64,000 nt of DNA from Bacteroidota bacterium (GTDB taxonomy: Bacteria > Bacteroidota > Bacteroidia > UKL13-3): assembly GCA_027488905.1 (NCBI GenBank), contig JAIYAT010000035.1, forward strand, positions 496,001 through 560,000. Direction: 5' to 3'. A program made the translations under genes and the position numbers. The stretch's first letter is position 1. Each line of letters starts with the position of its first letter. Shown one piece after another: positions 34,298 through 49,462 of this stretch. The notes beneath the pieces are model-generated. The model worked only from the letters and a program-made list of their open reading frames with translations. It made no database searches and was not told where the DNA came from.

Positions 34298-34382
34298 GAA
34301 ATTTATGCTTCAACTTTATCCTTAAAATTGTACTTTAGTATGAGTAAACTTAGGAAATTTAGCTCAACTCAACTAAAAAAAC

Positions 34383-35000
34383 ATGAAAATAGCAATTATA
34401 GGAACTGGCAATGTGGGGGGTGCATTAGCTACTAAATGGGCACATACTGGCCATGAAATTAACTTAGGTGTTAGAAATAAAGAGCAGTTTAAAGGTAAAG
34501 CCTTGTTATCTAATCCAAATACAAACTTGTTAGGCATTTTGGAAGCAGTTGAAGCTTCTGAAGTTATTTTGCTAGCAACCCCAGCCATGCATGCTATTGA
34601 AGTGGCTAAAAGTTTAGGAAACACAGAAAACAAAATAGTAATTGACAGCATGAATATCATAATGGGCAAAGGGCCTGAAGGATTTTCAACCACCTCAGAT
34701 GCTGTTCTTGCTCATACTGGAAGTAAACATATTGTAAAATGTTTCAATACCACAGGTTTTAACAATATGATGAACACTGAATATGGCAATCAAAAACTAG
34801 ATTTATTTGTTGCTGGAGACAGTGAAAAAGGCAAATCAGTTGCTATTCAATTGGCAAATGATGCTGGATTTGAAAACTGCTTTGACATTGGAGGCAATGA
34901 TAAGTTTGGAATGATGGAACAATTCGCTTGGTTTTGGATTAACCTGGCATTGTTTCAAGGCCAAGGAAGAGATATCGGATTCAAATTGCTAAAGAGATAA
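34383..35000 (+). CDS. NADPH-dependent F420 reductase-like oxidoreductase
   Basis: Cytoplasmic NAD(P)-binding protein of 205 residues. The N-terminal Rossmann motif is IAIIGTGNVGGALATKWAHTGHEI, followed by VRNKEQF, which suits NADP. VILLATPAMHAIEV, KIVIDSMNIIMG and VKCFNTTGFNNM match the F420-reductase/NAD-binding_2 family; DIGGNDKFGMMEQFAWFWINLALFQG ends it. The family is widespread in bacteria that lack F420, so the true substrate is unknown. Confidence 0.8.
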   Translation: MKIAIIGTGNVGGALATKWAHTGHEINLGVRNKEQFKGKALLSNPNTNLLGILEAVEASEVILLATPAMHAIEVAKSLGNTENKIVIDSMNIIMGKGPEGFSTTSDAVLAHTGSKHIVKCFNTTGFNNMMNTEYGNQKLDLFVAGDSEKGKSVAIQLANDAGFENCFDIGGNDKFGMMEQFAWFWINLALFQGQGRDIGFKLLKR

Positions 35001-35033
35001 TTTGATTGTTCCTCAAAAAATAATCAAATAAAA

Positions 35034-35687
35034 TCAATCCTTGATACAACGCACTGACAACCCATACTGCTTTTCAATGTTGACCCTGCCCATAGAGCCA
35101 CCTGAGTAATACAAGGTTCGGGTTCGTGCACTGCTAGAATCGTGTTCAGTAGCAAGCCACCAGTAACCGTATTTACCTAAGCCACGGAACGCTCCAAGGG
35201 TATCTCTTAAGCCACCTGGTAGTGCTGAATAACCACTGCTATTGGTGGCATCAGCATTAGGAGCATCCCACCCAAAAGTATTCTTCAATTTGCTACCTGC
35301 AAAATTTTCACCACACAAACTATTGGTTAATACCACCCATTCTGTTTCACTTGGGAGGTGCCAGCCTTCTGGGCAGGCTATCATAGCAGTTTGCCAATCG
35401 TACAAACGGCCATAAAGATTACCATTAGAAGGCTTATTATCATAATACCAACTGTTGCCAATTTGATAGTTTAAGTTTTGGGCAAACCACCATTGATTGC
35501 CTATTTTAACAGTAATGTATTTTTGGCCATCCCTTGGGTCGGTAAATGTAGAAAACTCAGGAGGGGGAATGGTATATTTGATTGTGTCAGTATCATTCTG
35601 CTTAATCTCCTCCTTCTTGCAAGCATCAAGCGATAATAATGCAGTAAATACAAAAGCTGTACTTAAAATTAAACGTACTTTTTTCAT
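35034..35687 (-). CDS. FISUMP-domain lipoprotein
   Basis: Predicted outer-membrane lipoprotein: signal peptide ending LLSLDACKK with the lipid Cys. The body is a FISUMP domain (Fibrobacter succinogenes major paralogous domain), with DGQKYITVKIGNQWWFAQNLN, CPEGWHLPSETEWVVLTN, SALPGGLRD, YWWLATE and the final LSVRCIKD. These domains are abundant in Bacteroidota surface proteins; the function is unknown. It converges on the F420-reductase-like gene with a 33-base gap. A second paralogue lies at 38741-39418. Confidence 0.85.
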   Translation of the reverse strand: MKKVRLILSTAFVFTALLSLDACKKEEIKQNDTDTIKYTIPPPEFSTFTDPRDGQKYITVKIGNQWWFAQNLNYQIGNSWYYDNKPSNGNLYGRLYDWQTAMIACPEGWHLPSETEWVVLTNSLCGENFAGSKLKNTFGWDAPNADATNSSGYSALPGGLRDTLGAFRGLGKYGYWWLATEHDSSSARTRTLYYSGGSMGRVNIEKQYGLSVRCIKD

Positions 35688-35932
35688 TTTGGTCTCTTAA
35701 TTTAATTTCTACTTTAGGTTTTCAAATTGGCTAATCAAATTTAATGATTTTTTATAATATTGACTAACCATTGAAGGCTAAAGTTAAACCTTGAAAAAAC
35801 CATAACGCTGTTTGATGCTTAAATGTTGAAATAATAACTTAGAAAGGCAAAAAGAAAAGCGGTTGATTTGTTTTACACTAATCAGGAGTTTTATGAAAAG
35901 GTAAAGTGATAGCTAATTATAGACTCTTACCC

Positions 35933-36268
35933 TTATTTCAGTAAGTTTATTATTTCAGCCTTCAATTTGGGCAAACTATTAATCACAATTGACCAAATCA
36001 TGTCGTCTGCGATGTTATCATAACTATGAATAATGCGATTCCTGGTTCCAACTATATTTCTAGCATTCTCAATTTTGAAATCTGGCTTTTCCTTAAGAAT
36101 TCTGTTTACCGCCTCACCAATAATTTCAATATTTCGTTCAACAGCTCTTTTAGTTTTAATGTTCTTTTGGTAAGCGATAAAATCTAAGGGTTTGTCTTCA
36201 AAGAATGATTCAATTTCTTCAATTGAATTAAGAATATCAAAAAGCCAACTATTGATTTTGTTATCCAT
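35933..36268 (-). CDS. hepT: HepT-like toxin ribonuclease (DUF86)
   Basis: HEPN-domain toxin of a HepT/MntA type VII toxin-antitoxin system. The start at 36268 (MDNKINSWLFDIL) fits the family and overlaps mntA by 8 bases; an upstream start would add eight residues. The HEPN active motif R-x4-H-x-Y is intact: R76, H81, Y83 in RNRIIHSYD. Residues 1-75 show the helical pattern IEEIESFF and RAVERNIEIIGEAVNRIL. In characterised pairs MntA adds AMP to the Tyr and so blocks RNase activity. 111 residues is normal. Confidence 0.88.
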   Translation of the reverse strand: MDNKINSWLFDILNSIEEIESFFEDKPLDFIAYQKNIKTKRAVERNIEIIGEAVNRILKEKPDFKIENARNIVGTRNRIIHSYDNIADDMIWSIVINSLPKLKAEIINLLK

Positions 36269-36560
36269 AAATGAGTTGCTTTTCAATATCAATTTGCTTT
36301 CTCAGAAATGAATTCCGAATACCCTTCATTTCAAGTAAATCAACTGGGCGATTGAAAATTGACTCTAATTGTTCTTTGAGGTCAAAGTAGTTGTCTGCAT
36401 AATCATATAAATCAAGGTTTTCAAAATCAACAACTAAATCTATATCACTTTTGTCAGTAAAAGAATCCTTAAGAACTGAACCAAATGCAAAAAGCTTATT
36501 CACTTTGTGCTTTAAGCAAAGGTGCTGTATCTTTTCAATATTTAACTCAATAAGATTCAT
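36261..36560 (-). CDS. mntA: MntA-like nucleotidyltransferase antitoxin
   Basis: Minimal nucleotidyltransferase of 99 residues, antitoxin partner of the overlapping hepT gene. The family motif GSx10DxD is exact: G27-S28, D39, D41 (FGSVLKDSFTDKSDIDLVV). The C-terminal RPVDLLEMKGIRNSFL matches the family. Antitoxin-first order with an 8-base overlap is the usual arrangement for this system. All residues needed for AMP transfer are visible, so the module looks functional. Confidence 0.88.
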   Translation of the reverse strand: MNLIELNIEKIQHLCLKHKVNKLFAFGSVLKDSFTDKSDIDLVVDFENLDLYDYADNYFDLKEQLESIFNRPVDLLEMKGIRNSFLRKQIDIEKQLIYG

Positions 36561-36672
36561 GTTGTAAAGGTAGTAGGTTTTTCAAATAGTTCAAAGTGGT
36601 ATTGCGGGAATCAAATACAAAAAGTTTATTCACCTAGTGTTTTAAGTATAGGTAATATTAATAGCAGTTATG

Positions 36673-37443
36673 CTATTCTTCTGTTCGTTCATTTTCTATA
36701 ATTTCTGCCACAAAAATTCCACTTTGGTCTTTATAAATTTCTACTAAAAGGTTTGCCCCTCCTTCTTGATAGGTCCGCTTTATTTTGAGCAAATACTTGT
36801 CGCCTTGCTTGTTAATGCTTAAAATTTCGTCAGTTGCGCCATCATCCTCTTTTAGTTCAAAATAAGGATAATCTTGTTCGTAATTTTTGTTCTTGATCAT
36901 TTTTACAAGCCCTACGTAGTTTGCTGACTTGTCAGAAAAAACTACGGGTGTGTGAATGGTACACCCTGTTAAACCATCTTCGTCCGAAATGCCCACACCA
37001 AAATAAGCGGTAGCATTAAATGAAACTTCGCTATTGTCAATTTTTACTGTTTTGTTTTGCGTGTTTTGAATTGGCTCATAAATTTTCCTTCCATCAACAT
37101 AGCCTTCCAAATCTTTCGTTCTTATTTTGACATATTTGAATTCTTGGCAATAGTCGTCTGTTGGTTTATTTTTATGGTATTTGTCGCTTACTTCTGTTAC
37201 AGCTACAAACTGTTCGTTTAAGTAGGATATATCCTTTATTTCTTTAAAATTTTCGTCTAACAGTTTGATGTCGTCACCCAGTAAAATTCCTTTTGCATTG
37301 ACTTTGTAAAAAGTGATTCTAATTTGGTTTGTATCTGGCTTTACACCTTCTACCTTTTCAGTGGTTTCTTTGTTCGTTTGGCTTTCTTGTTGCCCACAAG
37401 AAATTAGTATTAACAAACTTAATATTGCTGCTATCCTTTTCAT
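36673..37443 (-). CDS. Hypothetical lipoprotein
   Basis: I do not recognise the family. The 256-residue protein has a lipoprotein signal (MKRIAAILSLLILISCGQQ, lipid Cys16) and a Lys/Glu-rich linker, then a beta-rich body. YVKIRTKDLEGYVDGRKIYE near 110-130 looks like an SH3-like strand pattern, as in bacterial cell-wall binding domains; YLLKIKRTYQEGGANLLVEIYKD closes it. It has no catalytic motif I can name. Likely at the inner leaflet of the outer membrane. It is divergent from the CAP-domain gene. Confidence 0.55.
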   Translation of the reverse strand: MKRIAAILSLLILISCGQQESQTNKETTEKVEGVKPDTNQIRITFYKVNAKGILLGDDIKLLDENFKEIKDISYLNEQFVAVTEVSDKYHKNKPTDDYCQEFKYVKIRTKDLEGYVDGRKIYEPIQNTQNKTVKIDNSEVSFNATAYFGVGISDEDGLTGCTIHTPVVFSDKSANYVGLVKMIKNKNYEQDYPYFELKEDDGATDEILSINKQGDKYLLKIKRTYQEGGANLLVEIYKDQSGIFVAEIIENERTEE

Positions 37444-37533
37444 TGTTCTTGTTACTTTTTAGAATTGATGCTAACTTAATTGTAAATTAACATAATACCT
37501 GATAAATTCGTATTCTTTAAAAATTAGCCACTT

Positions 37534-38502
37534 ATGAAATTATCTAATTTAGCAATTATTTTTTACATTACCCTATTAATGGTTTCTTGTTCGAAAGGTG
37601 AAGATGCAACAAAAACTGAACAAAAAATTGAAACTCCAAGTGCAAGACAGCAGGCCATTAATGATTACCAGAATATGTTTGTTGCAGCGAAAGTGAACAA
37701 TTTTACATGGAATGGAAACACGAGCAATTGCACAGCAGGAACTTTATCCAAAGAAGTATTAGATAAAGCTTTACTGCGCCTACATTACTTTAGAAAAGCA
37801 GCAGGTCTTTCAAACAATGGGATAGTTTTTTTAAACGATTTAAATAATAAATCGCAACAAAACGCTTTGATGATAAAAGCAAATAACAAACTAGATCATT
37901 TTCCTACCTCAGATTGGAAATGCTATACTGCTGAAGGAGCAGAGGCTGCGCGATATGGAAATATAGCCTATGGTTTGAGTGATGTTGATAATATTGACCT
38001 TTGGATTGAAGATGAAGGTAACAACAATAAAGAGGTTGGACATAGAAGATGGATGTTGTTTTCAAAAGCAACTAATTTTGGATTTGGATGCACAAATAGC
38101 ACTGGAACACTTTGGGTGATAAACTCCGGAGCATCAAAAATTCCATTGCCAGCTTCTACTCCTAAATTTATAGCATGGCCTCCAGCCAATTTTATACCTA
38201 GTGCGGTTGTATACCCGCGCTGGTCATTTTCAGTTCCAGTATCCAGCTATCCTTTTCAAGTGGATTTCAGCAAGGCAACTGTATCCATGACTGATGCCGC
38301 AGGAGTAGCAATTCCCTTGCTTATAGAGTATGCAAATACCATTCAATCCATTTACGTGGGTGATAACGCCATCGTTTGGCGCCCAAGTGGTATTAAGCTA
38401 AATAGCAAAGAAGACCAAAAGTATAAGGTTAATATCTCGAATGTAATGGTTGAAGGAAATCCAAAAAATTACTCATACGAAGTCACCATCATCAATCCAT
38501 AG
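37534..38502 (+). CDS. CAP-domain lipoprotein
   Basis: 322-residue lipoprotein (signal ending LLMVSCSKG). Residues about 70-200 fit the CAP/SCP-PR1 fold: LRLHYFRKAAGL, NDLNNKSQQNALMIKANNKLDHFP, DLWIEDEG, VGHRRWMLFSKATNFGFG, where the last block is the conserved CAP signature with His. A C-terminal Ig-like beta domain follows (FIAWPPANFIPSAVVYPRWSFSVP, YKVNISNVMV). Bacterial CAP proteins are often extracellular and of unknown activity. The reading frame is intact. Confidence 0.75.
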   Translation: MKLSNLAIIFYITLLMVSCSKGEDATKTEQKIETPSARQQAINDYQNMFVAAKVNNFTWNGNTSNCTAGTLSKEVLDKALLRLHYFRKAAGLSNNGIVFLNDLNNKSQQNALMIKANNKLDHFPTSDWKCYTAEGAEAARYGNIAYGLSDVDNIDLWIEDEGNNNKEVGHRRWMLFSKATNFGFGCTNSTGTLWVINSGASKIPLPASTPKFIAWPPANFIPSAVVYPRWSFSVPVSSYPFQVDFSKATVSMTDAAGVAIPLLIEYANTIQSIYVGDNAIVWRPSGIKLNSKEDQKYKVNISNVMVEGNPKNYSYEVTIINP

Positions 38503-38740
38503 GATGATATTGTAAATACAGGAAGAAAATCACACGCTTTTTTCGATAGCGGTCATTTGGAATTTAGAACTAGAAAGAGAGATTATTGGGTTTGGAGAAC
38601 AAGTGCTAGTCATCAGTCCTAGGAGATTGGCCTTAAAAATTCAACTAAGCTAACAGCAGACTTTAGAAAATTATGGGTACTGGGGTAGTTAGTATGGCTA
38701 GTTATTTAAAGCTTTAAAAGGAAAACCTATTTGGTACAAA
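38503..38740. other. Intergenic region, no recognised content
   Basis: A 238-base gap between a plus-strand CAP-domain gene and a convergent FISUMP gene. I see no gene, strong hairpin or repeat in it. Confidence 0.5.
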
Positions 38741-39418
38741 TCAATCTTTAATACAACGAATATAACGACAACCTTCTTCTGTACCACGATCTGAAAAAGC
38801 AGCGCTATAATCATGTAACAGCGCGATACCAATTTGAAAACTGTTACTGGTATCAATTTTAGAATTCCAGAAACTAATGTTAAAACCAATGGCCCCAGTG
38901 TGTCCCGGAAGTCCAGTTCCTCCTGGTAGTGCATTAAATCCAAATGCATCAACCCCTCCAGTATTTGGTTTTTGCCATAATTGTGTTCCTTTAGCCTTTA
39001 AATTTCCGCCAGCGATTGAATCTCCACCACAATAATTAATGAGTTGGTTCCACTCTGCAATTGAGGGAATATGCCATCCGGGAGGACATGCGCTTTGAGC
39101 TGCTACCCAATTGTATGCCACGCCATATGTTGAATAATTAAAGGTGTTTTTTGCCTCTGAAACCTGATCCTCCTCATAACCGGCTACACAATAATAAGGC
39201 ATAGTTTGAGAATATTGCCTCCATTTAATCATATAAGGCAGGTACCTAAGATTTTCAGCCATCCAAGTTTGGGAACCAATTTTTACAGTTTTATAGACTG
39301 TCCCATCCCTAGGGTCTTTATATTGATTAGCCAATTCTTCTTTTTTGCAAGCACTAAGCGTTAAAAGCAAAATAGAAAGCATGAATAAAACACGATTTAT
39401 CAATTTATTAATTTTCAT
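38741..39418 (-). CDS. FISUMP-domain lipoprotein, second paralogue
   Basis: 225-residue predicted lipoprotein (signal ending LLLTLSACKK). FISUMP motifs: DPRDGTVYKTVKIGSQTWMAENLRY, CPPGWHIPSIAEWNQLINYCGG, FNALPGG, and the last residues YIRCIKD, which match the other copy at 35034-35687. An inserted loop (MPYYCVAGYEEDQ) is absent from that copy. The two share signal type and architecture but differ clearly in sequence, so duplication is not recent. Function unknown. Confidence 0.83.
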   Translation of the reverse strand: MKINKLINRVLFMLSILLLTLSACKKEELANQYKDPRDGTVYKTVKIGSQTWMAENLRYLPYMIKWRQYSQTMPYYCVAGYEEDQVSEAKNTFNYSTYGVAYNWVAAQSACPPGWHIPSIAEWNQLINYCGGDSIAGGNLKAKGTQLWQKPNTGGVDAFGFNALPGGTGLPGHTGAIGFNISFWNSKIDTSNSFQIGIALLHDYSAAFSDRGTEEGCRYIRCIKD

Positions 39419-40046
39419 TTTTCAGAAGATATATTTTCAAAAATAATTCAAATGCTAACATAAATAAAACTAATTGTTTCGATCAAAAATTTAAGGATTT
39501 TATGGTTTCCGATTAAATGGTCTATGTCCAGAACTTTGTAGGCTAAGCTAAGTTGGACCTATTTTAAATGGGCTAGTTTTTCTTTATCCATGTCGTCACT
39601 AAAATTACTGCCAATGTCAGCGTCCAAAGTGTTGGGATGCTGGTGAAAACCGCCCCTACTCCTATTCTTTAAATGTAGTAATTAAATCAATTAAAAATGA
39701 ATTGCTAAAGGGGTAATAATGGTTGAACCAAAGTGCTTAATACAATGGTTTTGGGGTGGTTTCGGGTTGAACCAATTAGAAATGAAGGGAGTAAGTTGTG
39801 CTTTTAAAAGCTCCATAGGAGCGTTCTGTTTGTAGGAAATGATTTGTATTTAAACAAAGCTCCGTAGGAGCGTTCTGTTGTTAAAATAGATGTGCATCCT
39901 AGTTTCCAAAGGGATTTTTTATAAGGCTAGCCGCCGAAGGTAAACTTGAAGGACCAAAGAATTCTTTTAGTATGCTTCAAGAAAAGAGATAGGAACTGCA
40001 AAAACTAACTTCGGAACACGAAACACTGCCTATTGCAAATGTGCTG
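39419..40046. other. Non-coding accessory stretch with short repeats
   Basis: A 628-base gap between the FISUMP and Sel1-repeat genes. It holds two GGTTGAACC sites (39721-39729, 39765-39773), two copies of an AGCTCC-x-TAGGAGCG repeat (39809, 39858), and the downstream side of the cassette-like junction after the Sel1 gene (40009-40050). I see no gene. Confidence 0.55.
39809..39879. repeat. Pair of short direct repeats with internal palindrome
   Basis: Two 22-base copies, 39809-39830 and 39858-39879, differ at one position: AGCTCCRTAGGAGCG followed by TTCTGTT. CTCC-GTA-GGAG is a small hairpin. The AGTAGCTCCGCACC units of the tandem array at 45867-46394 share only the AGCTCC core. They look like members of an interspersed non-coding repeat. 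Confidence 0.6.
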
Positions 40047-40060
40047 TTAGTGGCTGGTGT
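40009..40060 (-). repeat. Cassette-end (attC-like) sequence after the Sel1-repeat gene
   Basis: GTTAGTGGCTGGTGT (40046-40060, plus strand) matches the inverted upstream end of the same gene (40785-40799) at 13 of 15 positions. The gene's TAA stop codon lies inside this core. Bases 40012-40050 match 41895-41933, the same place after the SIR2-like gene, at 31 of 39 positions. The full fold on the downstream side is not evident. Confidence 0.5.
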
Positions 40061-40745
40061 TCTTGTCATTCTTAGGTGTCCTTCCGATAATTATTAATAT
40101 TTCCTGTGCACTTCTATGGTCACCGTCTTTGTCTGCCAACTCTAAATGAAATCTTGCTTTGTCAATGTCTTTTTTAACTACTTCACCTTCTAAGTAAATT
40201 TTCCCAATCATATAATTTGCCTCGTCAACCTCATAAGGTGTCACGTTTGGCAACGCAATTGATTTGAAAATTTCTAATGCCTTCAATTTGTCTTTGGTCA
40301 CTCCAACCCCGTGATAATAACACATTCCAATTGTCAATTCTTGAAAGAACTCTTCATTTCGATTTGCTTTCACATAATGGTCAAAAGCCTTTTCAAACTC
40401 TTGCCTGTTCCTATATTCAAGTCCTAAGCAATAGGTGGCATCTTTGTCTCCATTGTTCATTTCCTCCTCATATAATTTCATACCTAATTCAATGTCAAGA
40501 ACACCAGGTGGGTTATTTCTGTCTGTCAAGTAGTGAGCATAACTGATTTTTGCTTTTTTGTGTCCATTTTCATAAGCCTTTTTTGTCCAACTAAAAGCAC
40601 TTTGTATATTCTTTTTTACAATTTCAAGGTTGTCAATATTCAGTCCGTTTTCATAAATAGTCGCAACTTCAAATTGAGCAGAAGTGTCGCCTAATTCTGC
40701 CTTTTTCAAAAGGTCATTCCATTTTTCAGTTGTATTTATGTCCAT
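40047..40745 (-). CDS. Sel1-repeat (TPR-like) protein
   Basis: Cytoplasmic 232-residue protein with no signal peptide. It consists of helical Sel1-like repeats: AELGDTSAQFEVATIYENG, AYENGHKKAKISYAHYL, GDKDATYCLGLEYRNRQEFEKAFDHY, IGMCYYHGVGVTKDKLKALEIF, EANYMIGKIYLEGEVVKKDIDKARFHLELA. Such repeats mediate protein-protein contacts; no enzymatic domain is present. It is flanked by matched inverted GTTAGTGGC ends, 40 bases before the start codon and overlapping the stop codon, as in a single-gene cassette. Its role as an accessory gene is unknown. Confidence 0.8.
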   Translation of the reverse strand: MDINTTEKWNDLLKKAELGDTSAQFEVATIYENGLNIDNLEIVKKNIQSAFSWTKKAYENGHKKAKISYAHYLTDRNNPPGVLDIELGMKLYEEEMNNGDKDATYCLGLEYRNRQEFEKAFDHYVKANRNEEFFQELTIGMCYYHGVGVTKDKLKALEIFKSIALPNVTPYEVDEANYMIGKIYLEGEVVKKDIDKARFHLELADKDGDHRSAQEILIIIGRTPKNDKNTSH

Positions 40746-40784
40746 TTATCAGAATTTGTTTGTCTGTCACCGGTCTGCTGCGTT

Positions 40785-40799
40785 ACACTTGCCACTAAC
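40785..40799 (-). repeat. Upstream matched end of the Sel1-repeat cassette
   Basis: On the minus strand it reads GTTAGTGGCAAGTGT, 40 bases before the start codon at 40745. It matches the inverted end at 40046-40060 at 13 of 15 positions. CCGTTA here is complementary to TAACGG beyond the downstream end of the neighbouring unit (41378-41383 side), as expected for the two arms of one attC-like junction. Confidence 0.5.
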
Positions 40800-40921
40800 G
40801 GCAGAGTGTGAAAAAACCTCTCCACACTGTTTAGTGTAAAATTATTGAAAAGGGAGTGATTAAGCAAGTAGCTGTGTATTTAAATTTGCTTCAACAAAAG
40901 AGGTATGAACTATATTTAAGG

Positions 40922-41128
40922 AAGTAACCATGGGCAGTTTGAGTTTAGTTGATAGTCGGCCCGTTTTTTATTTCCTATTGCAGTCAGTTTACCCCTAACC
41001 TATATTTTTCCATCCGTTAACGAAACTTCCTTCAACAACTGTGGCATTTTATTCCTTCACGGTTTCTTCACCGTAGGGGTAATAAACTTGATGCACATAT
41101 CTCCTTCAGCAAGGGACTTTTTATCCAT
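40922..41128 (-). pseudogene. Remnant of a type I restriction subunit R (hsdR) N-terminus
   Basis: Reading from the ATG at 41128 in one frame gives MDKKSLAEGDMCIKFITP, then, after an in-frame TGA, RNKMPQLLKEVSLTDGKI, then, after a TAG, VRGKLTAIGNKKRADY. This follows the start of EcoEI-type HsdR proteins as I remember them (xxKKxLSExDICxKFITPA, QLREEVxFTDGKI, VRGKLTxRGxxKRADYxL). About 69 codons remain, with two stops and no frameshift. No hsdM or hsdS is nearby. It marks a former restriction locus or captured fragment. Confidence 0.75.
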
Positions 41129-41382
41129 TAGTTAATTTAAATAGGGTTCAGCAAAATACGAATCTTATTATTGGGTTGAAAAAAAATGGATTTAATGAGT
41201 TTGTGAAAGGTTTTTTCTTTTGAATGGCTTGTCTAAAAAGCCATTTTAGTGCTGTTTAAGACAACCAGTTTTAACACTAAATAAAAAATTAAATGCGCTT
41301 AAATCTCAGACAAATACATCTATTTTTAGGAAAAAGAAGTTGGTTTTTAAAGTTTGAAAGAAGTTGTGCAACAGCTACCACC

Positions 41383-41399
41383 GTTATGCGCATACCAAT
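41383..41399 (-). repeat. Downstream matched end of the small-protein cassette
   Basis: GTTATGCGCATACCAAT on the plus strand matches, inverted, the upstream end of the same gene at 41800-41816 at 16 of 17 positions. It lies 15 bases beyond the stop codon of the 41415-41786 gene. Confidence 0.55.
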
Positions 41400-41414
41400 T
41401 TACGAGATATGCTT

Positions 41415-41786
41415 TTAGTAATGAAAATAATATGAATCAGTCTCTACTCCATCATCAAGCATTTTAACTTCAACATTAAGAAGTTCATTCTCTAGATATT
41501 TCCTTTCTGAAATATCAATAAAATCCAAATCCAAAGAACTCAACGAAGTATTAATTCTATCTAAATTAATTAGCTCATTGTTTTTTAAAAAGTCAATTGT
41601 TTTTCTGACACTCTCGCTTGGAACATTCTCTTCGGTCATATGCCAAATAAAATCTTGCTTTTCTTCAGAATCATTTAAATCATATATAATTGTGCCTATA
41701 ATTTTGTTATAATCAATATGACTCCAATGGATTTTCTGTGAACCAATGGCTCCGAGAAATGATTCTAAAAATTTCTTTCTTTTCAT
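41415..41786 (-). CDS. Small unknown protein in a cassette-like unit
   Basis: I do not recognise this 123-residue protein. It starts MKRKKFLESFLGAIGSQ, has no signal peptide or clear membrane segment, and is rich in acidic residues after residue 35 (DLNDSEEKQDF, LSSLDLDFIDISERKYLENELLNVEVKMLDDGVE). The pattern suggests a mixed helical cytoplasmic protein, perhaps with immunity-protein-like character, but nothing proves that. The ATG is 14 bases from a matched inverted end (41800-41816) and the stop codon 15 bases from the other (41383-41399), which supports it as the gene carried by a cassette. Confidence 0.55.
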   Translation of the reverse strand: MKRKKFLESFLGAIGSQKIHWSHIDYNKIIGTIIYDLNDSEEKQDFIWHMTEENVPSESVRKTIDFLKNNELINLDRINTSLSSLDLDFIDISERKYLENELLNVEVKMLDDGVETDSYYFHY

Positions 41787-41799
41787 TTAATATATTTTT

Positions 41800-41943
41800 A
41801 TTGGTTTGCGCATAACCTTTACAGATTTGGGCAAGCTTTACAGCACAAAAGTTTTTTGGGAGAACTAAACTTTCGACTACTACAAGATTGTCTGCGGAGT
41901 GCGAAACCCCGCCTACTGACAATGTGCTGTTAGCTGATGTGCC
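41800..41943 (-). repeat. attC-like junction between the SIR2-like and small-protein units
   Basis: Read on the minus strand, this starts with the downstream end of the SIR2-like unit (GGCACATCAGCTAAC, 41929-41943) and ends with the upstream end of the small-protein unit (GTTATGCGCAAACCAAT, 41800-41816). Inner arms are inverted: AGCTAACAGCACA near the first end and TGTGCTGTAAAGCT (41834-41847) near the second. A second nested pair ATTGTC/GACAAT surrounds a GC-rich core. This architecture, ends plus nested imperfect arms of about 140 bases, is what integron attC sites look like. The cores are GTTA rather than strict GTTRRRY. Confidence 0.5.
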
Positions 41944-42013
41944 TTTTTTCATTTGAAATGTTGTCGGTGTAAAGTCCTAACCATAAGTAAGTGAAAGTCC
42001 AATACTCCGTTGT

Positions 42014-43096
42014 TCAGTGTTCATTTGGAATGTGAAAAGTAGAAAGATTATACACGGGTTTTGTTATTGCTCGTAAGTTTGGATTTATACCGTCAAGTTT
42101 GTCGAGCAGTTCATCCATTTCATCTTTCGGTGCTTGGTAATAAATCTTTTTAAGTTTAGGAATGTTCTCGAAAATTTGTCTGTCAACTATTTTATTGAAA
42201 GTCGGAAACGAATAACCGATAATTACAAGAATGCTTGTTTCTTCCATTATCCGTTTTGCAAATTGTCGGGTTTCATTTACAATAGGTTCGTTCTCCCAAG
42301 CAAAAGAGAAAAGTGGTTTATTAAAAGAACGATGATAATTCTTCTCTAAAAGTTCAACTAAGAATTCTAGGTTGTCCACGAGTTTATGCTCTCTCAAGTC
42401 AAACAGGTTATAGTATCTCTTTGCTGTGTAGTCGTCAATTAAACCTGCTGTTCCATTTAGTTTTAGGATACATGATTTTTTGATGTCAAATTTCTTTTGA
42501 GGGGAGGGAAAAACTTGCAGGTTCTGTTGGGATAATTCTAAGCTGTAATTCTTTACATGAGAATATGATGATTCAAATTGCATATCATAATTCCATGAAA
42601 GAATTTTTATATTTTCAGGTAGAGTTCCGTTTGTTTCTGTTAAGTAGTCTCCCCAAAAAGTAATATACCGTTTGTCAATGTTTGTTTTAATCATCACTTG
42701 CAACTCTTCTTCTAATTGAAGTCGTATTGGTGGTAATATACTGTCGTCGTATTCATCAGAAAAAAACAACATTTCTTCAGGCTTTACGAGTTGCTCAAAA
42801 ATTATGTAGCTACTTAAAAGTGCTTTTAGTCGTAAGAGTTTTATTTGTGCATCTGGTCCACCGTTGATTGAAAGTTCCCTTGCGTAAGCGTCAATTGAAG
42901 TTCGTTTAGTTTCTATACCTATTAACTCGTGAAGGTCTTTAATAAATTGGTTAGTAAACTTGTGCTTTAGTTTTCCATCAGTAAGTTGTATTTCTAAAAA
43001 AGTTCTGAATGCCCTCATGCGGTCATTCATTGTTCTGATTAGAGGCAAACTGTAATAGCTTGCTCCTGCACCGATAAAGTATGTGATGTTCTCCAT
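42014..43096 (-). CDS. SIR2-like domain protein, possible anti-phage effector
   Basis: 360-residue cytoplasmic protein. The N-terminal ITYFIGAGASYYSLPLI is the NAD-binding GAGxS motif of SIR2-like domains; ILSWNYDMQFE (N169) matches their conserved (T/W)NYD; VIIGYSFPTFNKIVDRQIF matches the late GYSxxD block. Many SIR2-like NADases act in defence systems such as Thoeris, where the Asn and a later His are catalytic. Here the position of the His (usual LHG) reads KLNGTAG, with N214. That could mean loss of NADase activity or a subfamily with altered chemistry. No partner gene is fused or adjacent in an operon; it sits in its own cassette-like unit, between ends 41929-41943 and 43163-43177. Confidence 0.75.
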   Translation of the reverse strand: MENITYFIGAGASYYSLPLIRTMNDRMRAFRTFLEIQLTDGKLKHKFTNQFIKDLHELIGIETKRTSIDAYARELSINGGPDAQIKLLRLKALLSSYIIFEQLVKPEEMLFFSDEYDDSILPPIRLQLEEELQVMIKTNIDKRYITFWGDYLTETNGTLPENIKILSWNYDMQFESSYSHVKNYSLELSQQNLQVFPSPQKKFDIKKSCILKLNGTAGLIDDYTAKRYYNLFDLREHKLVDNLEFLVELLEKNYHRSFNKPLFSFAWENEPIVNETRQFAKRIMEETSILVIIGYSFPTFNKIVDRQIFENIPKLKKIYYQAPKDEMDELLDKLDGINPNLRAITKPVYNLSTFHIPNEH

Positions 43097-43384
43097 GTAA
43101 TTCTAAAAGTCTTTTTGTATTCAGTTCATATTTTGTAGAAATGTTAAGGTTAGAAGTTCGCTGGCATTGTAGCTAACTATTCAATACCCAAAACTATAAC
43201 AGTTATCAAAACAAACCTACCTAATTCACCTCGATCAAAAAATACCCATAAGTGGGTATATTTTAAAATAGAAATATTTTTAAATAAATAGAAGTTTTCT
43301 ACTAGCAATTGAAGGTTCCGTTCAACCGGAGTTTCATGGCTTGGCTTGCAACCACCATGAAACTCTAGCTGTTAGGGGTAGTTT
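43097..43384. other. Junction region between the DUF262 and SIR2-like units
   Basis: A 288-base gap. It holds the upstream end of the SIR2-like unit (43163-43177), a perfect 11-bp hairpin (43329-43365) and the downstream end of the DUF262 unit (43371-43387). No gene is present. Confidence 0.5.
43163..43177 (-). repeat. Upstream matched end of the SIR2-like cassette
   Basis: On the minus strand it reads GTTAGCTACAATGCC, 66 bases before the start codon. The other end of the unit, GTTAGCTGATGTGCC at 41929-41943 on the plus strand, matches at 11 of 15 positions, with the first seven and last four identical. Confidence 0.45.
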
Positions 43385-43387
43385 TTA
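43329..43387 (-). repeat. attC-like end and hairpin after the DUF262 gene
   Basis: GTTAGGGGTAGTTTTTA (43371-43387, plus strand) is the inverted match, 16 of 17, of 44957-44973 upstream of the same gene. Next to it lies an 11-bp perfect stem GAGTTTCATGG (43329-43339) / CCATGAAACTC (43355-43365) with a 15-base loop, followed by GTTGAAC on the minus strand, a perfect GTTRRRY match. Confidence 0.55.
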
Positions 43388-44947
43388 TATTATGCTTCTT
43401 GCCTTGTCTGTCAGTATTACGACACGCTTAGCAATAAAATCTTCATAAGTCAAGTCTAAAGAGTCTGTCGGGCAAATTGCTCTTTCCATTACATTTGCTA
43501 AAGCACCTGGATTAATAAGAGCTTTATAAGTTTTTGGATCTTTATTCTTTATTTTTTGATTATCACCAGAACTTAAAAAGCAAAAGTTCGCAATCATATT
43601 GATTTTTTTACTGTCAACTTTTAAGTCTTGAAGGTGCTTTTTAGGAAAAATGTGATGAAATTCATTTCTATTTACTGTCTTAAGCACCTCACTTAAAGAT
43701 ACATTTGCCCCAGAAAGGAAAGATAATGGATTTTGATATGCAAGGAATAAAACAAATGTTTTTGAATTTACTGAGCCAATGTTGAACTGATTGTTCTGGA
43801 AGAATTCGTTTGTAATTTCACAGTCGAATTCCGCAATTAATTGATTCTCATCTGAGCTCAATTTTTTCATTAAGGCGATGTCTTGTTTGTGTTTGTCTGT
43901 AATACCTCCTGTATATCTGCGTGAGAAATTGGAACGCCAAAACCATTTTATTAATTGTTCTCTTTGTTTATGCGTAACATTTTTACCATTTACTTTATCT
44001 GTCGCAAAAAAGTATGACAACGATACAAGCATTGAAGGATAAGGCAGCCAGTCTAAAGAATAAACATTTAATTCATTACGAAGAAAGTCAACTGCACCTT
44101 TAATGCCGTTTTTTATCCGTTCAAAATTTTTACGAACGTCTTCTCCTTTTAAGTTTATTATTGAAGAAGGAGACGCTTCCTCTTTTATTATACCACTACA
44201 ACACTTTAATTGCAAATCTTTGTCATCTGAAATATTCCCAAAGCCAAAGGGCTGCATTTCTGCAGCCAATTCTGAGAACTCTTCTTGTAAGTCGAAATCA
44301 GAACTCCAACTCCATGCAGTTAAAAGTTGATAAGTGTCTAATGGTTCACCCGCTCTATTTATTCGTTCAAAAATAATCGCAACACTTTCTTTGTCATCTG
44401 TTTCAATTTCCTGAGATGGAAGGTTGAATTCCAAAAACTTTTGATATACCTCAGTAATTAATTTTTGTTTTGATTCATCTAATTTACTTACATATTTATG
44501 AAAGTCAAGTGGTCGTAAAATTGCATTCATAGGGAAATGAATATTCTCGTCTACTTGGTCATTTTTGATTGCAATAAAACAAGGTTCTTGTATTTGTCCT
44601 GCTTTAGAGAAGTCAAAATATATATCAATCCATTCGTAGTTGTCGTCTGGGCTTAATTCAGTCTGAAATACACTAAACAATGAAGTAATCCGCTGTTGGC
44701 CATCCAAAACATAATATATTGGATGGTCTTTTTTAGGTTCAGGTACTGTGAAATTACCTAATGTTTTTTCTGTCTCAAGACGTTCGTGTGTCTTCCACAA
44801 AAACACTGTCCCGATAGGAAAATTCTTATAGATACTATCCAAAAGAAATGCGACTTGATTCGGTGACCAAACAAAACCGCGTTGGAAAGCAGGAATTCTG
44901 ATTTCTCCTGAAATGACTCTGTCAATTATTTTTCTTATTGTTATCAT
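43385..44947 (-). CDS. DUF262/HNH nuclease-like protein (GmrSD-type)
   Basis: 520-residue cytoplasmic protein. The N-terminal DUF262 domain has the ParB/Srx-like core: IPAFQRGFVWSPNQVAFLLDSI and YVLDGQQRITSLFSVF, with DGQQR at 82-86, the motif tied to nucleotide binding in GmrS-type proteins; FERINRAGEPLD also fits. The C-terminus has an HNH-like (DUF1524-type) nuclease motif, RNEFHHIFPKKHL (H431-H432), with NMIANFCFLSSGDNQKIKNKDP downstream. Related proteins restrict modified DNA (GmrSD, BrxU) or work with phosphorothioation systems (SspE). Intact frame; likely a defence gene. Its ends are a 17-bp inverted pair, 43371-43387 and 44957-44973. Confidence 0.85.
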   Translation of the reverse strand: MITIRKIIDRVISGEIRIPAFQRGFVWSPNQVAFLLDSIYKNFPIGTVFLWKTHERLETEKTLGNFTVPEPKKDHPIYYVLDGQQRITSLFSVFQTELSPDDNYEWIDIYFDFSKAGQIQEPCFIAIKNDQVDENIHFPMNAILRPLDFHKYVSKLDESKQKLITEVYQKFLEFNLPSQEIETDDKESVAIIFERINRAGEPLDTYQLLTAWSWSSDFDLQEEFSELAAEMQPFGFGNISDDKDLQLKCCSGIIKEEASPSSIINLKGEDVRKNFERIKNGIKGAVDFLRNELNVYSLDWLPYPSMLVSLSYFFATDKVNGKNVTHKQREQLIKWFWRSNFSRRYTGGITDKHKQDIALMKKLSSDENQLIAEFDCEITNEFFQNNQFNIGSVNSKTFVLFLAYQNPLSFLSGANVSLSEVLKTVNRNEFHHIFPKKHLQDLKVDSKKINMIANFCFLSSGDNQKIKNKDPKTYKALINPGALANVMERAICPTDSLDLTYEDFIAKRVVILTDKARSII

Positions 44948-44956
44948 GTCTTTCTT

Positions 44957-44973
44957 TAAAAATTACCCCTAAC
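44957..44973 (-). repeat. Upstream matched end of the DUF262 cassette
   Basis: On the minus strand GTTAGGGGTAATTTTTA, 9 bases before the DUF262 start codon. It matches the inverted end at 43371-43387 at 16 of 17 positions. Confidence 0.55.
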
Positions 44974-45058
44974 TAAACCTATCTGCGCTAAAAACCACTT
45001 TTTACTTTATTAGAAACCAAGCCTATTCGAAATTTACTAGGTATTTATTATTGTTAAT

Positions 45059-45385
45059 TTACTCCTCCTCCACCCTCGCATCCCCCGCATTCTTCTTCAC
45101 CGAAGCAATACCATTTTCTCTTGCGGCTTCGCTTTCATAAAATTCGCTTTTGCCGATGATTTGGCCATTAGAGGCTTTCAGGTTAAAGTAAGGCTTGTTG
45201 TTGGTGGAGGTTTTGCGTTCATAGCGCTCGTCTACTTGCGAGTTTACTTTTGCCGAGGCAATGCCGTTTTCGCAGCCAGCTTTGTTGGTATAGCCTTCGC
45301 TTGTTAAAATAACTTGTCCATTGCCAGCTTTCAAGTTAAACTGATACTCGCCGTTGGCTCTTTGAGTGATTACAAATTTTCCCAT
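45059..45385 (-). CDS. YegP/DUF1508 family protein
   Basis: 108-residue protein made of two copies of the ~50-residue DUF1508 (YegP, UPF0339) domain: YQFNLKAGNGQVILTSEGYTNKAGCENGIASAK and YFNLKASNGQIIGKSEFYESEAARENGIASVKKNA. Each copy has the GQIIxxSExY and ENGIxSVK motifs of the family. Function is not established; the family occurs in stress-related contexts. No signal peptide. A GGTTCAAACC lies 51 bases upstream of its start codon. Confidence 0.9.
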   Translation of the reverse strand: MGKFVITQRANGEYQFNLKAGNGQVILTSEGYTNKAGCENGIASAKVNSQVDERYERKTSTNNKPYFNLKASNGQIIGKSEFYESEAARENGIASVKKNAGDARVEEE

Positions 45386-45606
45386 GGGTTTGGTGTTTTA
45401 TGGTTAATTAAAATAATTGCTTGATCATATGCTTCGGTTCAAACCGAACCCACTTTGTTTATAGACTAATACCCAGAAGGTATAAACTTCGCAGGATTGG
45501 GTGGTATGCATACATGGCGTACGGGGGTAATTTTAGGTTTCATTGCTAATTAAATTTAAGGGTATTACAAGTTAGGGGATTTTAGGTGAGAATTCCAAAT
45601 TTTGCT

Positions 45607-45676
45607 GCTGGTGGTTGGCTTTTGGCAGTTGGTGGTTAGCTTTTAGCTATTGGTTTTTGGCGGTTGGTTTTTGGCA
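45607..45676 (+). repeat. Left flanking tract of the tandem array
   Basis: Simple-sequence tract of GGTTGGC, TTGGCAGTTGG, GGTTAGCT and TAGCTATTGG blocks. The tract at 46395-46458 carries the same blocks in inverted orientation, so the array sits between long imperfect inverted repeats. Confidence 0.65.
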
Positions 45677-45866
45677 TCGTGCTGGATACCAGTATCTTTT
45701 TGAGTTTACACACTAAATAAGGACACTCCTTCTCCTGCTGCTTCTCTTTCTATGAAACTCCTTCTCTTGCTCCTCCTCCTTCTGTTAACACTTTACACAC
45801 TAAATGAGATGCTAAATTCTACAAGACACTCACAATCAATCATTTCCATTGAAATTCTTATGTACC

Positions 45867-46394
45867 TTTTATGGAGTAGCTCCGCACCTTTTATGGAGTA
45901 GCTCCGCACCTCTTATGGAGTAGCTCCGCACCTCTTATAGAGTAGCTTCGCACCTCTTATGGAGTAGCTTCGCACCTCTTGTATAGTAGCTTCACACCTC
46001 TTATGGAGTAGCTTCGCACCTCTTGTATAGTAGCTTCGCACCTCTTATGGAGTAGCTTCGCACCTCTTATGGAGTAGCTTCGCACCTCTTGTATAGTAGC
46101 TTCGCACCTCTTATGGAGTAGCTTCGCACCTTTTATGGAGTAGCTCCCCACCATTTGGGTAGTAGCTCCCCACCATTTGGGTAGTAGCTTCCCACCATTT
46201 GGGTAGTAGCTCCCCACCATTTGGGTACTAGCTTCCCACCATTTGGGTACTAGCTTCCCACCATTTGGGTACCAGCTTCCCACCATTTGTATAGTAGGTC
46301 CCCACCATTTGGGTAGTAGCTTCCCACCACTTGGGTAGTAGCTTCCCACCATTTGGGTAGTAGCTCCCCACCACTTGTATAATAGCTCCCCAAA
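45867..46394. repeat. 22-bp tandem repeat array, 24 units
   Basis: Twenty-four contiguous 22-base units occupy 528 bases without a length change. Units 1-13 (45867-46152) carry AGTAGCTYCGCACC preceded by TCTTATGG or TCTTGTAT variants; units 14-24 carry ATTTGGGTAGTAGCT followed by YCCCACC. The switch at 46153 is abrupt. Because 22 is not a multiple of three, an open frame on the minus strand cycles every 66 bases. There are no spacers, so it is not CRISPR. Confidence 0.95.
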
Positions 46395-46458
46395 AGCCAA
46401 TAGCTAAAGGCAAAGACACGCCAACTGCCAATAGCTAACCACCAATAGCCAACCACCG
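46395..46458 (-). repeat. Right flanking tract of the tandem array, inverted
   Basis: Contains CCAACTGCCAATAGCTAACC and CCAATAGCCAACCACC, the complement of blocks at 45607-45676. The pair frames the 22-bp array as one composite element. Confidence 0.65.
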
Positions 46459-46476
46459 GAACAAAGCCAAAGAGAC

Positions 46477-46517
46477 AAAAAAAAAGCTGAGCAATCAATC
46501 ATGAATGCTCAGCTTTT
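46477..46517 (-). terminator. Rho-independent terminator of the tRNA genes
   Basis: On the minus strand a 12-bp stem AAAAGCTGAGCA/TGCTCAGCTTTT (46506-46517 and 46482-46493) with a 12-base loop runs into a T stretch (the A run 46477-46485). It begins two bases after the end of tRNA-Leu. Confidence 0.85.
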
Positions 46518-46518
46518 G

Positions 46519-46603
46519 TACCCGGGGCGGGACTTGAACCCGCACGTCTTTAAAGGACACAGGATTTTAAGTCCTGCGTGTCTACCAATTCCACCACCCG
46601 GGC
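46519..46603 (-). tRNA. tRNA-Leu (TAA anticodon)
   Basis: An 85-base cloverleaf with a long variable arm. Acceptor GCCCGGG pairs with CCCGGGT (one G-T pair) before discriminator A. D-arm region GGTGGAATTGGTAGACAC, anticodon arm CAGGACTTAAAATCCTG with TAA, and T-arm GCGGGTTCAAGTCCCGC are all present. CCA is not encoded. Confidence 0.95.
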
Positions 46604-46618
46604 GCACTATTTCAAAAT

Positions 46619-46648
46619 AAAAAGTTACAGCGCTAACTGTAACTTTTT
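46619..46648 (-). terminator. Hairpin in the tRNA spacer
   Basis: A perfect 12-bp stem AAAAAGTTACAG (46619-46630) with its complement at 46637-46648 and a 6-base loop, between tRNA-Gly and tRNA-Leu. The arm ends in TTTTT on both strands, so it could attenuate transcription or guide processing of a joint transcript. Confidence 0.55.
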
Positions 46649-46651
46649 TTG

Positions 46652-46724
46652 AGCGAGAGACGAGGCTCGAACCCGCGACCTCAACCTTGGCAAGGTTGCG
46701 CTCTACCAACTGAGCTACTCTCGC
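46652..46724 (-). tRNA. tRNA-Gly (GCC anticodon)
   Basis: A 73-base cloverleaf: acceptor GCGAGAG with CTCTCGC and discriminator T, D-arm TAGCTCAGTTGGTAGAGC, anticodon arm AACCTTGCCAAGGTT with GCC, T-arm CGGGTTCGAGCC. CCA is not encoded. It is followed by a hairpin and tRNA-Leu on the same strand. Confidence 0.95.
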
Positions 46725-46861
46725 ATTTACCGAAACGGGAGTGCAAATATAGAATTGCTATGCTACTTTGCAAATGTTCTCCTAAAATAACTGATGTTTT
46801 CTTAGTTAGTCGCTGATTTACAAAAGAAAATTTTATAACATTGCTGCCTTTAAAGTTCAAT

Positions 46862-49462
46862 TTATTCTAGCAACTTCTTAATCTCATTCAATTTCAACAA
46901 GGCTTCTATAGGAGAAATCGCATTTAAATCTAAGGTTTGAAGCAATCCTCTAATTTCTTGCATCTGGGGATCATCTATCTGAAACATGCTCAATTGAATG
47001 GGATTTACTTTTAGCTTTGTGTCTTTGGTACTCATGTTCTGCCTGCCCTTTTCCAATTCTTTTAGCAATACATCTGCGCGTGAAAGTACCGTTTTGGGTA
47101 TACCTGCCATTTGCGCCACATGGATACCAAAGCTATGCTCGCTGCCACCTTCTACCAATTTGCGCAAAAAGATTACCTTGTTGTTTTGCTCTTTAATTTT
47201 AACATGAAAGTTTCTTATCCCATTGGTGGGTTGAGATAATTCGTTTAATTCATGGTAATGGGTGGCAAACAAGGTTCGCGGACGATACGGATGCTGATTG
47301 AGGTATTCTGTGATAGACCATGCCAAAGAAATGCCATCATAAGTGCTCGTTCCTCTTCCAATCTCATCCAATAAAATTAAGCTTCGAGCAGATAAGTTGT
47401 TAAGGATACTGGCTGTTTCTGTCATCTCCACCATAAAAGTACTTTCGCCAGACGACAAATTATCACTCGCTCCTACCCTTGTAAAAATTTTATCTACCAC
47501 TCCAATTTGTGCCTCAGAGGCTGGCACAAAGCAACCCATTTGAGCCATTAAAACACACAAAGCAGTTTGCCTTAAAACTGCAGATTTACCACTCATGTTT
47601 GGACCCGTTAAGATGATAATTTGTTGAGTGGTTTTATCTAAAAAAATATCATTGGCAATATAAGGCTCGCCATGGGGCAATTGCTTTTCAATTACAGGAT
47701 GTCTTGCATCCTTAATCATCAGGCTTTCTGCATCTGTAACTTCTGGCTTGCAATAATTATTTTGTGCTGCTAAATGCGCAAAAGCAAATAAGCAGTCTGC
47801 TTTGGCCAATAGTTGGGCATTGGTTTGTACAATACTTACTTGCTCGGCTAAGGAAGTTACTAAAGCCGTATACATCCGTTCTTCTATGACATTAATTTTC
47901 TCCTCGGCACCTAAAATTTGCTCTTCATATTGCTTGAGTTCTTCGGTGATGTAGCGTTCTGCATTCGTGAGGGTTTGCTTGCGCATCCAATCTGCTGGCA
48001 CTTTATCTTTATGCGTATTGGTTACTTCCAAATAATAGCCAAACACATTGTTAAACGCAATTTTAAGACTAGGTATATTGGTGCGTTCTTGTTCCTTCTT
48101 CTGAAGTTGAAGCAAATAATCTTTGCCCCCAAAAGCTATTTTTCTTAATGCATCTAATTGTTCATCTACGCCTTCTTTAATGATTTGTCCTTTATTGGCC
48201 AAAACAGGTGGTTCTGGCATCAATTGCTTGTCTATGGTTTCTATTAACCACTCACAACTGTTTAATTGCCCTGCCAAGGTTTGCATCAAAGGATTATCAA
48301 ACTTAAGTAAGAGACTTTTTAGCGGAGCAATATTTTTAACCGAACGATTGAGTTGTTGTAATTCTCTAGGACCAATGCGCCGCATGGCTAATTTAGAAAT
48401 AAGTCTTTCCAAATCGCCTACCTGACTCAACACTTCTAATACTTCTTTTCTTAAGGCTGTTTTATCTTTGGCCAAGGCAACCATGTTTAAGCGCTCATTA
48501 ATCAGCACTATATCTTTTAAAGGCATCACCAACCACTTCTTTAGCAATCGGGCACCCATGGGGGTTACGGTTTGATCCAACACCTGAATCAGTGGAACGC
48601 CGCTTTCGGCGGCGGAAGACAACAACTCGAGGTTTCTGATGGTAAACCTATCCAACCAAACATATTTTTCTTCGTCTATCCTAGAAACCTGCTGTATATG
48701 CCCAACTTGATGGTGATGCGTTTCTCCTAAATAATGCAAACAAACTCCAGCACAAATTATGGCTAAAGGCAATTCTTGAATGCCAAATCCTTTTAGGTTT
48801 TTGGTATTAAAGTGCTGAAGCAATTTATCATAGGCAAAGTTTTGTTGAAATATCCATTCCTCTTGGGTGAAAGTATAAAACCTATCTCCAAAGACTTGTT
48901 TAAAGGCATTGAGTTGCTTTTTGCATACCAACACTTCAGAAGGTCTAAAGCCTTGTAAAAGCTTGTCTATATAAGCGGTTGGACCTTGGGTAGTAAGAAA
49001 TTCACCTGTTGAGATATCTAACAAAGCAAGCCCAGCAAGACTTTCATTTTCCATGAACCAAGCCGCTAGGTAATTATTGCTTTTATGGTCTAGAATTTTG
49101 TCGTTGTAACTTACCCCTGGGGTTATGAGCTCTGTAACACCACGCTTTACAATTTTCTTAGTAAGTTTTGGGTCTTCGAGTTGGTCGCAAATGGCCACGC
49201 GTTGGCCAGCTCTTACTAACTTAGGAAGGTAATTATCTAAAGAATGGTGCGGAAAACCTGCTAATTCAATGTGTGAGGCAGAACCATTGGCTCTTTTGGT
49301 TAAAACTATGCCAAGGATTTGTGCTGCTTTGATGGCATCCTCTCCAAATGTTTCATAAAAATCGCCAACCCTAAATAACAAAATCGCATCTGGATATTTA
49401 CCTTTAATATCAAGGTATTGTTTCATTAAGGGTGTTTCGCTTATCTCAGCCTTTTTTGACAT
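46862..49462 (-). CDS. mutS: DNA mismatch repair protein MutS
   Basis: Mismatch-recognition ATPase. 866 residues, normal for MutS1. The N-terminal mismatch-binding FxE motif is in FRVGDFYETFGEDA, followed by RVAICDQLEDPK. A connector and core domain follow, then the ATPase: Walker A TGPNMSGKSAVLRQTAL, the STFMVEMTETASIL box, Walker B ILLDEIGRGTSTYDGISLAW and ATHYHELNEL. The C-terminal helical part (LDLNAISPIEALLKLNEIKKLL) is present. A GC-rich hairpin coding for SSAAESG is at 48598-48614. No GGTTCAAACC site occurs in it. Confidence 0.97.
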   Translation of the reverse strand: MSKKAEISETPLMKQYLDIKGKYPDAILLFRVGDFYETFGEDAIKAAQILGIVLTKRANGSASHIELAGFPHHSLDNYLPKLVRAGQRVAICDQLEDPKLTKKIVKRGVTELITPGVSYNDKILDHKSNNYLAAWFMENESLAGLALLDISTGEFLTTQGPTAYIDKLLQGFRPSEVLVCKKQLNAFKQVFGDRFYTFTQEEWIFQQNFAYDKLLQHFNTKNLKGFGIQELPLAIICAGVCLHYLGETHHHQVGHIQQVSRIDEEKYVWLDRFTIRNLELLSSAAESGVPLIQVLDQTVTPMGARLLKKWLVMPLKDIVLINERLNMVALAKDKTALRKEVLEVLSQVGDLERLISKLAMRRIGPRELQQLNRSVKNIAPLKSLLLKFDNPLMQTLAGQLNSCEWLIETIDKQLMPEPPVLANKGQIIKEGVDEQLDALRKIAFGGKDYLLQLQKKEQERTNIPSLKIAFNNVFGYYLEVTNTHKDKVPADWMRKQTLTNAERYITEELKQYEEQILGAEEKINVIEERMYTALVTSLAEQVSIVQTNAQLLAKADCLFAFAHLAAQNNYCKPEVTDAESLMIKDARHPVIEKQLPHGEPYIANDIFLDKTTQQIIILTGPNMSGKSAVLRQTALCVLMAQMGCFVPASEAQIGVVDKIFTRVGASDNLSSGESTFMVEMTETASILNNLSARSLILLDEIGRGTSTYDGISLAWSITEYLNQHPYRPRTLFATHYHELNELSQPTNGIRNFHVKIKEQNNKVIFLRKLVEGGSEHSFGIHVAQMAGIPKTVLSRADVLLKELEKGRQNMSTKDTKLKVNPIQLSMFQIDDPQMQEIRGLLQTLDLNAISPIEALLKLNEIKKLLE

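Follow-up and report, generated by a model that had tools for sequence, protein, structure and literature searches.

What is the short, interrupted reading frame that runs leftward from position 41128 of the window, and how did it come to lie in a cassette-like island? The window is the whole 64,000-nucleotide stretch analysed here, corresponding to C32:496001-560000 of a 3.55-Mb genome in 40 contigs (G000). Judged by its sequence, the segment from 41128 to 40952 on the minus strand is a dead fragment from the 5' end of hsdR, which encodes the restriction subunit of a type I system, here of the EcoAI/EcoEI kind. The features on which this reading and the history proposed below rely are collected in Table 1.

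Table 1. Coordinates of the hsdR remnant and of the features that surround it in the window.
Feature	Position	Strand	Description
hsdR remnant	40952..41128	-	59 codons, residues 2-60 of an 803-aa EcoAI/EcoEI-type HsdR; one TGA, one TAG; no indel
Leader upstream of hsdR start	41129..41163	-	about 35 bp, common to the intact C27 hsdR and the hsdR genes of G033 and G086; blastn end at 41163
Left end of IS1182-family insertion sequence	40797..40951	+	transposase start at 40905, stop after four codons, cut at 40951
Junction of truncated transposase and truncated hsdR	40951..40952		neither parent sequence crosses
Cassette-like unit, Sel1-repeat gene (40047-40745)	40046..40799	-	inverted arms GTTAGTGGC at 40046-40054 and 40791-40799
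Cassette-like unit, 123-aa gene without Pfam family (41415-41786)	41383..41816	-	inverted arms GTTATGCGCA
Cassette-like unit, gene with weak PADLOC SIR2 match (42014-43096)	41929..43177	-	inverted arms GTTAGCT
Cassette-like unit, GmrSD_N (DUF262) gene (43385-44947)	43371..44973	-	inverted arms GTTAGGGGTA
Spacer repeat	41211..41379		88% identity with a spacer that belongs to a different array of this genome, on C23

The identity of the frame rests on two libraries. The NCBIfam model NF046051 (EcoAI/FtnUII type I restriction subunit R) matches residues 7-63 of the 70-aa translated piece at model positions 2-58/768 (E = 1.3e-9), and the remnant also matches the type I R subunit of PDB 3h1t (E = 2.9e-5). 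The initial annotation had read the frame at 40922-41128 as HsdR and had proposed a translated search against HsdR as a check, and that search is significant in both libraries. A Pfam search of the 70-aa piece returned 0 families; note that in the intact 803-aa protein the Pfam HSDR_N domain begins only at residue 52. Aligned with the intact hsdR of its own genome, the remnant is identical at 152/177 bases with no indel. The two in-frame stops, the unshifted frame and the decay by substitution and deletion that had been annotated all hold, and the EcoEI type is borne out indirectly, through the EcoEI_R_C domain that the intact paralogue carries above the Pfam cut-off. The annotated count of about 69 surviving codons has to be reduced to that of Table 1, since the last 10 or so codons are antisense IS1182 transposase. 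What survives amounts to 7% of the intact protein and contains none of the parts of a working enzyme (nuclease motif, helicase domain, EcoEI_R_C). The hsdR stub is without restriction function, a remnant and not an enzyme.

The intact relative lies elsewhere in the same genome, at C27:291761-294172, where an hsdR encoding 803 aa scores 1179 bits against a cut-off of 550 bits and is followed by a gene for a 298-aa protein and then by hsdM and hsdS. In Pfam its product shows the restriction/helicase region as well as EcoEI_R_C, among other domains. Homology of the window to this gene by blastn extends from 41163 to 40952 (83%). Because it takes in about 35 bp of leader, the stub represents a native gene start and not an internal fragment. 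The leader is also present at the intact hsdR genes of G033 and G086, which belong to two other genera, and its 12-base block TTCGTATTTTGC occurs upstream in 8/78 sequences, the remnant and the intact paralogue included.

At its other side the hsdR homology ends bluntly at 40952, and the bases 40951..40922 belong to an IS1182-like left end. In other genomes, sequence matching 40797-40951 continues into a transposase, and homologues sharing this left end encode a transposase that scores 342 bits against NF033551 (NCBIfam IS1182; cut-off 270). Two nearly identical intact copies of 1756 bp in G038 are bounded by terminal inverted repeats of about 26 bp (88%). The window piece has the left terminal sequence and 15-16 transposase codons, and its right end is lost. 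Within the genome itself, 40951-40797 shows 92% identity to a C23 spacer (L007 7127-7281) and matches a second spacer of that contig at L007 3802-3930. From L007 7127 to about 7690 extends an internally deleted IS1182-like copy that keeps both ends and a 3' fragment of the transposase and resembles a small non-autonomous element. Two other assignments were considered and rejected. The 40797-40951 repeat is not the attC site of a 'fossil cassette', as its copies elsewhere read into the IS1182 transposase, and the spacer at 41211-41379 is not the right end of the element, as the right end of the intact copies differs.

We consider it probable that a type I operon once stood in the island, that a large deletion fused its hsdR to the insertion sequence, and that the stub then decayed. 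The stub would be the surviving 5' end of this operon, and an IS1182-family insertion sequence would have lain downstream of it in the opposite orientation. A large deletion would have fused hsdR codon 60 to transposase codon 16, taking out all that followed in hsdR, hsdM and hsdS if present, and the remainder of the insertion sequence; the stub, released from constraint, would thereafter have gained its two stop codons. That the whole operon was once at this place is something we infer, since the island showed no trace of hsdM or hsdS, and the junction was presumably made by a single deletion. No microhomology is visible at the 40951/40952 join, which backs no particular mechanism of deletion.

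So short a fragment could also have been truncated before it reached the island, carried along by the insertion sequence or by an array spacer, in which case a full operon never existed here. Such a capture would fit the island, where no other restriction-modification gene was seen, the sister locus of G009, which is without the stretch, and the array spacers, copies of which stand in another of the genome's arrays. A mobile fragment should likewise be found in more than one place. However, when 98 genomes were searched with 40760-41430, some match was found in 18 (own included), and among the matches listed outside the own genome none spans the junction; furthermore, the remnant retains its own leader. 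We therefore regard capture of a pre-truncated piece as improbable and retain deletion of a resident operon as the preferred reading.

In G009, the closest relative compared (MutS 99% identical, aroA 92%), gene order at the locus is the same, 38519-46465 (7,947 bp) is missing with 92 other bases in its stead, and 34290-35027 and 35826-36670 are likewise absent. A pair of genes at 35933-36560, one for a nucleotidyltransferase (Pfam Polbeta/NTP_transf_2) and one HepT-like, which we take to be of the MNT-HEPN toxin-antitoxin kind, is also absent from the G009 locus. G005 (MutS 94%) holds pieces matching 38579-38685 and 39573-40049 near aroA, at a contig end. There the spacer at 39858-40049 is 94% identical to L058 9632-9823, as against 74% for aroA and its neighbours, and the two genomes diverge directly after the spacer, at a GTTA core. 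On these sequence comparisons a recent cassette exchange between the window genome and G005 is possible. Short palindromic AGCTCC(A/G)TAGGAGC repeats occur at 39800-39890 of the window and at L058 9440-9660, where in G005 they adjoin a gene recognised by eye as resembling a REP-associated transposase.

The substitutions in the stub tell of relaxed constraint. Of 86 hsdR loci, 85 matched the first 70 residues and 77 allowed gap-free codon comparison, the rest being dropped; among these 77 intact sequences the C27 hsdR is the nearest to the remnant. The two differ by 7 synonymous and 15 nonsynonymous changes and the two stops (dS 0.22, dN 0.127), whereas in comparisons of the C27 gene with the ten intact relatives closest to it, synonymous changes number 12-24 and nonsynonymous ones 4-6.5 (dN 0.031-0.051). 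The dN/dS ratio is about 0.6 between remnant and paralogue and about 0.02-0.1 among intact genes. Stops and lost constraint, the marks of a pseudogene, are thus both found in the remnant. Because of this higher share of nonsynonymous change, which the intact comparisons do not have, the remnant appears to have evolved near-neutrally for most of the time since its split from the C27 copy. The initial annotation had called the decay fairly recent, which stands only as a dS of about 0.2, and had expected a full-length homologue in a sister strain to date the loss. G009 yielded no full-length hsdR at the locus, and in G005 the contig stops short of this position; the loss can thus be dated only indirectly.

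Near-neutral change also bears on whether the stub could still function, with its leader as the promoter of the Sel1-repeat cassette gene that lies downstream in the same orientation. Several intact hsdR genes have kept the leader block in front of them, and the first gene to follow on the minus strand does begin at 40745. However, the block is found in just 8 of the 78 sequences, and the end of the insertion sequence intervenes between leader and gene; together with the neutrality of the remnant, this makes such a role very unlikely. Chance likeness of so short a frame to HsdR, for which the empty Pfam search might be cited, can be dismissed given the E values in two libraries and the indel-free identity with a real hsdR, leader included.

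The stub is not the only one of its kind. A second hsdR start stub in the genome, at C23:323653-323808 (L012 1474-1656; L074 5614-5809), is of a different lineage and frameshifted, adjoins a Fic-family gene and ends near codon 65. In G009:C66, hsdR codons 1-142 with a stop are followed by an HsdS-like 3' end, and in G005:C9 (L070 2170-2511, minus strand) an open frame of 114 aa joins an HsdR-like start, which matches NF046051 (E = 5.1e-6), in frame to an HsdS-like end, the HsdS likeness being read by eye in both cases. The latter is apparently an in-frame deletion fusion. These stubs fit the loss of type I operons through large internal deletions. A clustering of breakpoints along hsdR (codon 60 in the window, about 65 in C23, about 55 in G005) was rejected as not clear, in view of the scattered pieces found when residues 1-133 of the intact HsdR were used to search 295 genomes of the class. 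Partial pieces were few, and those among the matches listed cover residues 1-32 (G183), 51-96 (G158) and, as a frameshifted pair, 2-78 and 71-133 (G125). A weak match in the own genome at C27:266749-267093 was rejected as a third stub, as it sits within an open frame of 156 aa.

The stub was annotated as lying inside a cassette region, and the flanking inverted arms and the sister genome that is without the stretch agree with this, with the qualification that we term the region only cassette-like. The longest inverted flank arm begins with GTTA in 4/4 array genes and in 0/13 control genes of the window, a pattern that was noticed before it was tested. Complementary core sites thus occur at both ends of the units, but the arm lengths are singly weak, being reached by 41, 23, 319 and 35 of 500 shuffles. 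Rfam assigns no family to the cassette-like sites over 35000-47000, and no integron integrase above the TIGR02249 cut-off was found in the own genome or in the 19 relatives searched; the highest score, 223 bits against 265, belongs to a candidate on C17 that matches the model in two pieces with positions 182-239 missing. It is for these three reasons that the more cautious term is used. When the array spacers were compared with the surroundings of 80 named hsdR loci, a single short match (51 bp, 82%, L075) was recovered, and consequently we claim no link between intact hsdR genes and arrays. Further along the island, a 22-bp unit is directly repeated about 20 times (45754-46435).

GTTA or GTTG stands beside the IS1182-like element in 13/15 distinct copies compared, and in the window copy as well. 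A preference of the element for the GTTA core is a lead, and part of the GTT may be the element's own terminus. More speculatively, and we judge this rather doubtful, an IS1182-family element may favour the GTTA core of cassette-like sites in this genus, with its deletions into type I operons regularly removing defence genes of the arrays and leaving hsdR start stubs behind.

Finding a remnant of a type I gene is nothing unusual, and the stub in itself is an ordinary genomic scar. Its value is that the loss of one type I restriction system is documented beside an intact relative in the same genome, and that the island holding the stub is missing from the closest available relative, which makes it a concrete case of defence-gene turnover. 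The annotated turnover at the locus is partly supported by the adjoining GmrSD_N gene and the gene with the weak SIR2 match, although the defence role of both is only putative. The larger interest, if true, would be that an insertion sequence favouring cassette cores drives such losses of defence genes.

Three known systems provide a frame of comparison. With the EcoAI/FtnUII (type IB) hsdR of the C27 operon the remnant shares gene start, leader, frame and residues over 59 codons; the C27 protein, however, has all 803 aa with helicase and EcoEI_R_C, and hsdM and hsdS adjoin its gene, whereas the window has a 7% piece with two stops. Similarly, 40797-40951 matches the left end and transposase start of IS1182-family insertion sequences, but these elements measure about 1.75 kb and the window keeps just 155 bp, with an in-frame stop in the transposase start. 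Cassette genes usually face the other way than those in the window, which in this respect departs from integrons and from CALIN. CALIN are integron-like clusters of attC sites without an integrase (PMC7923331). In the window, too, genes stand singly, each flanked by short inverted arms of its own that start with GTTA and are candidate sites, and a spacer body is common to the window and G005 up to the GTTA core.
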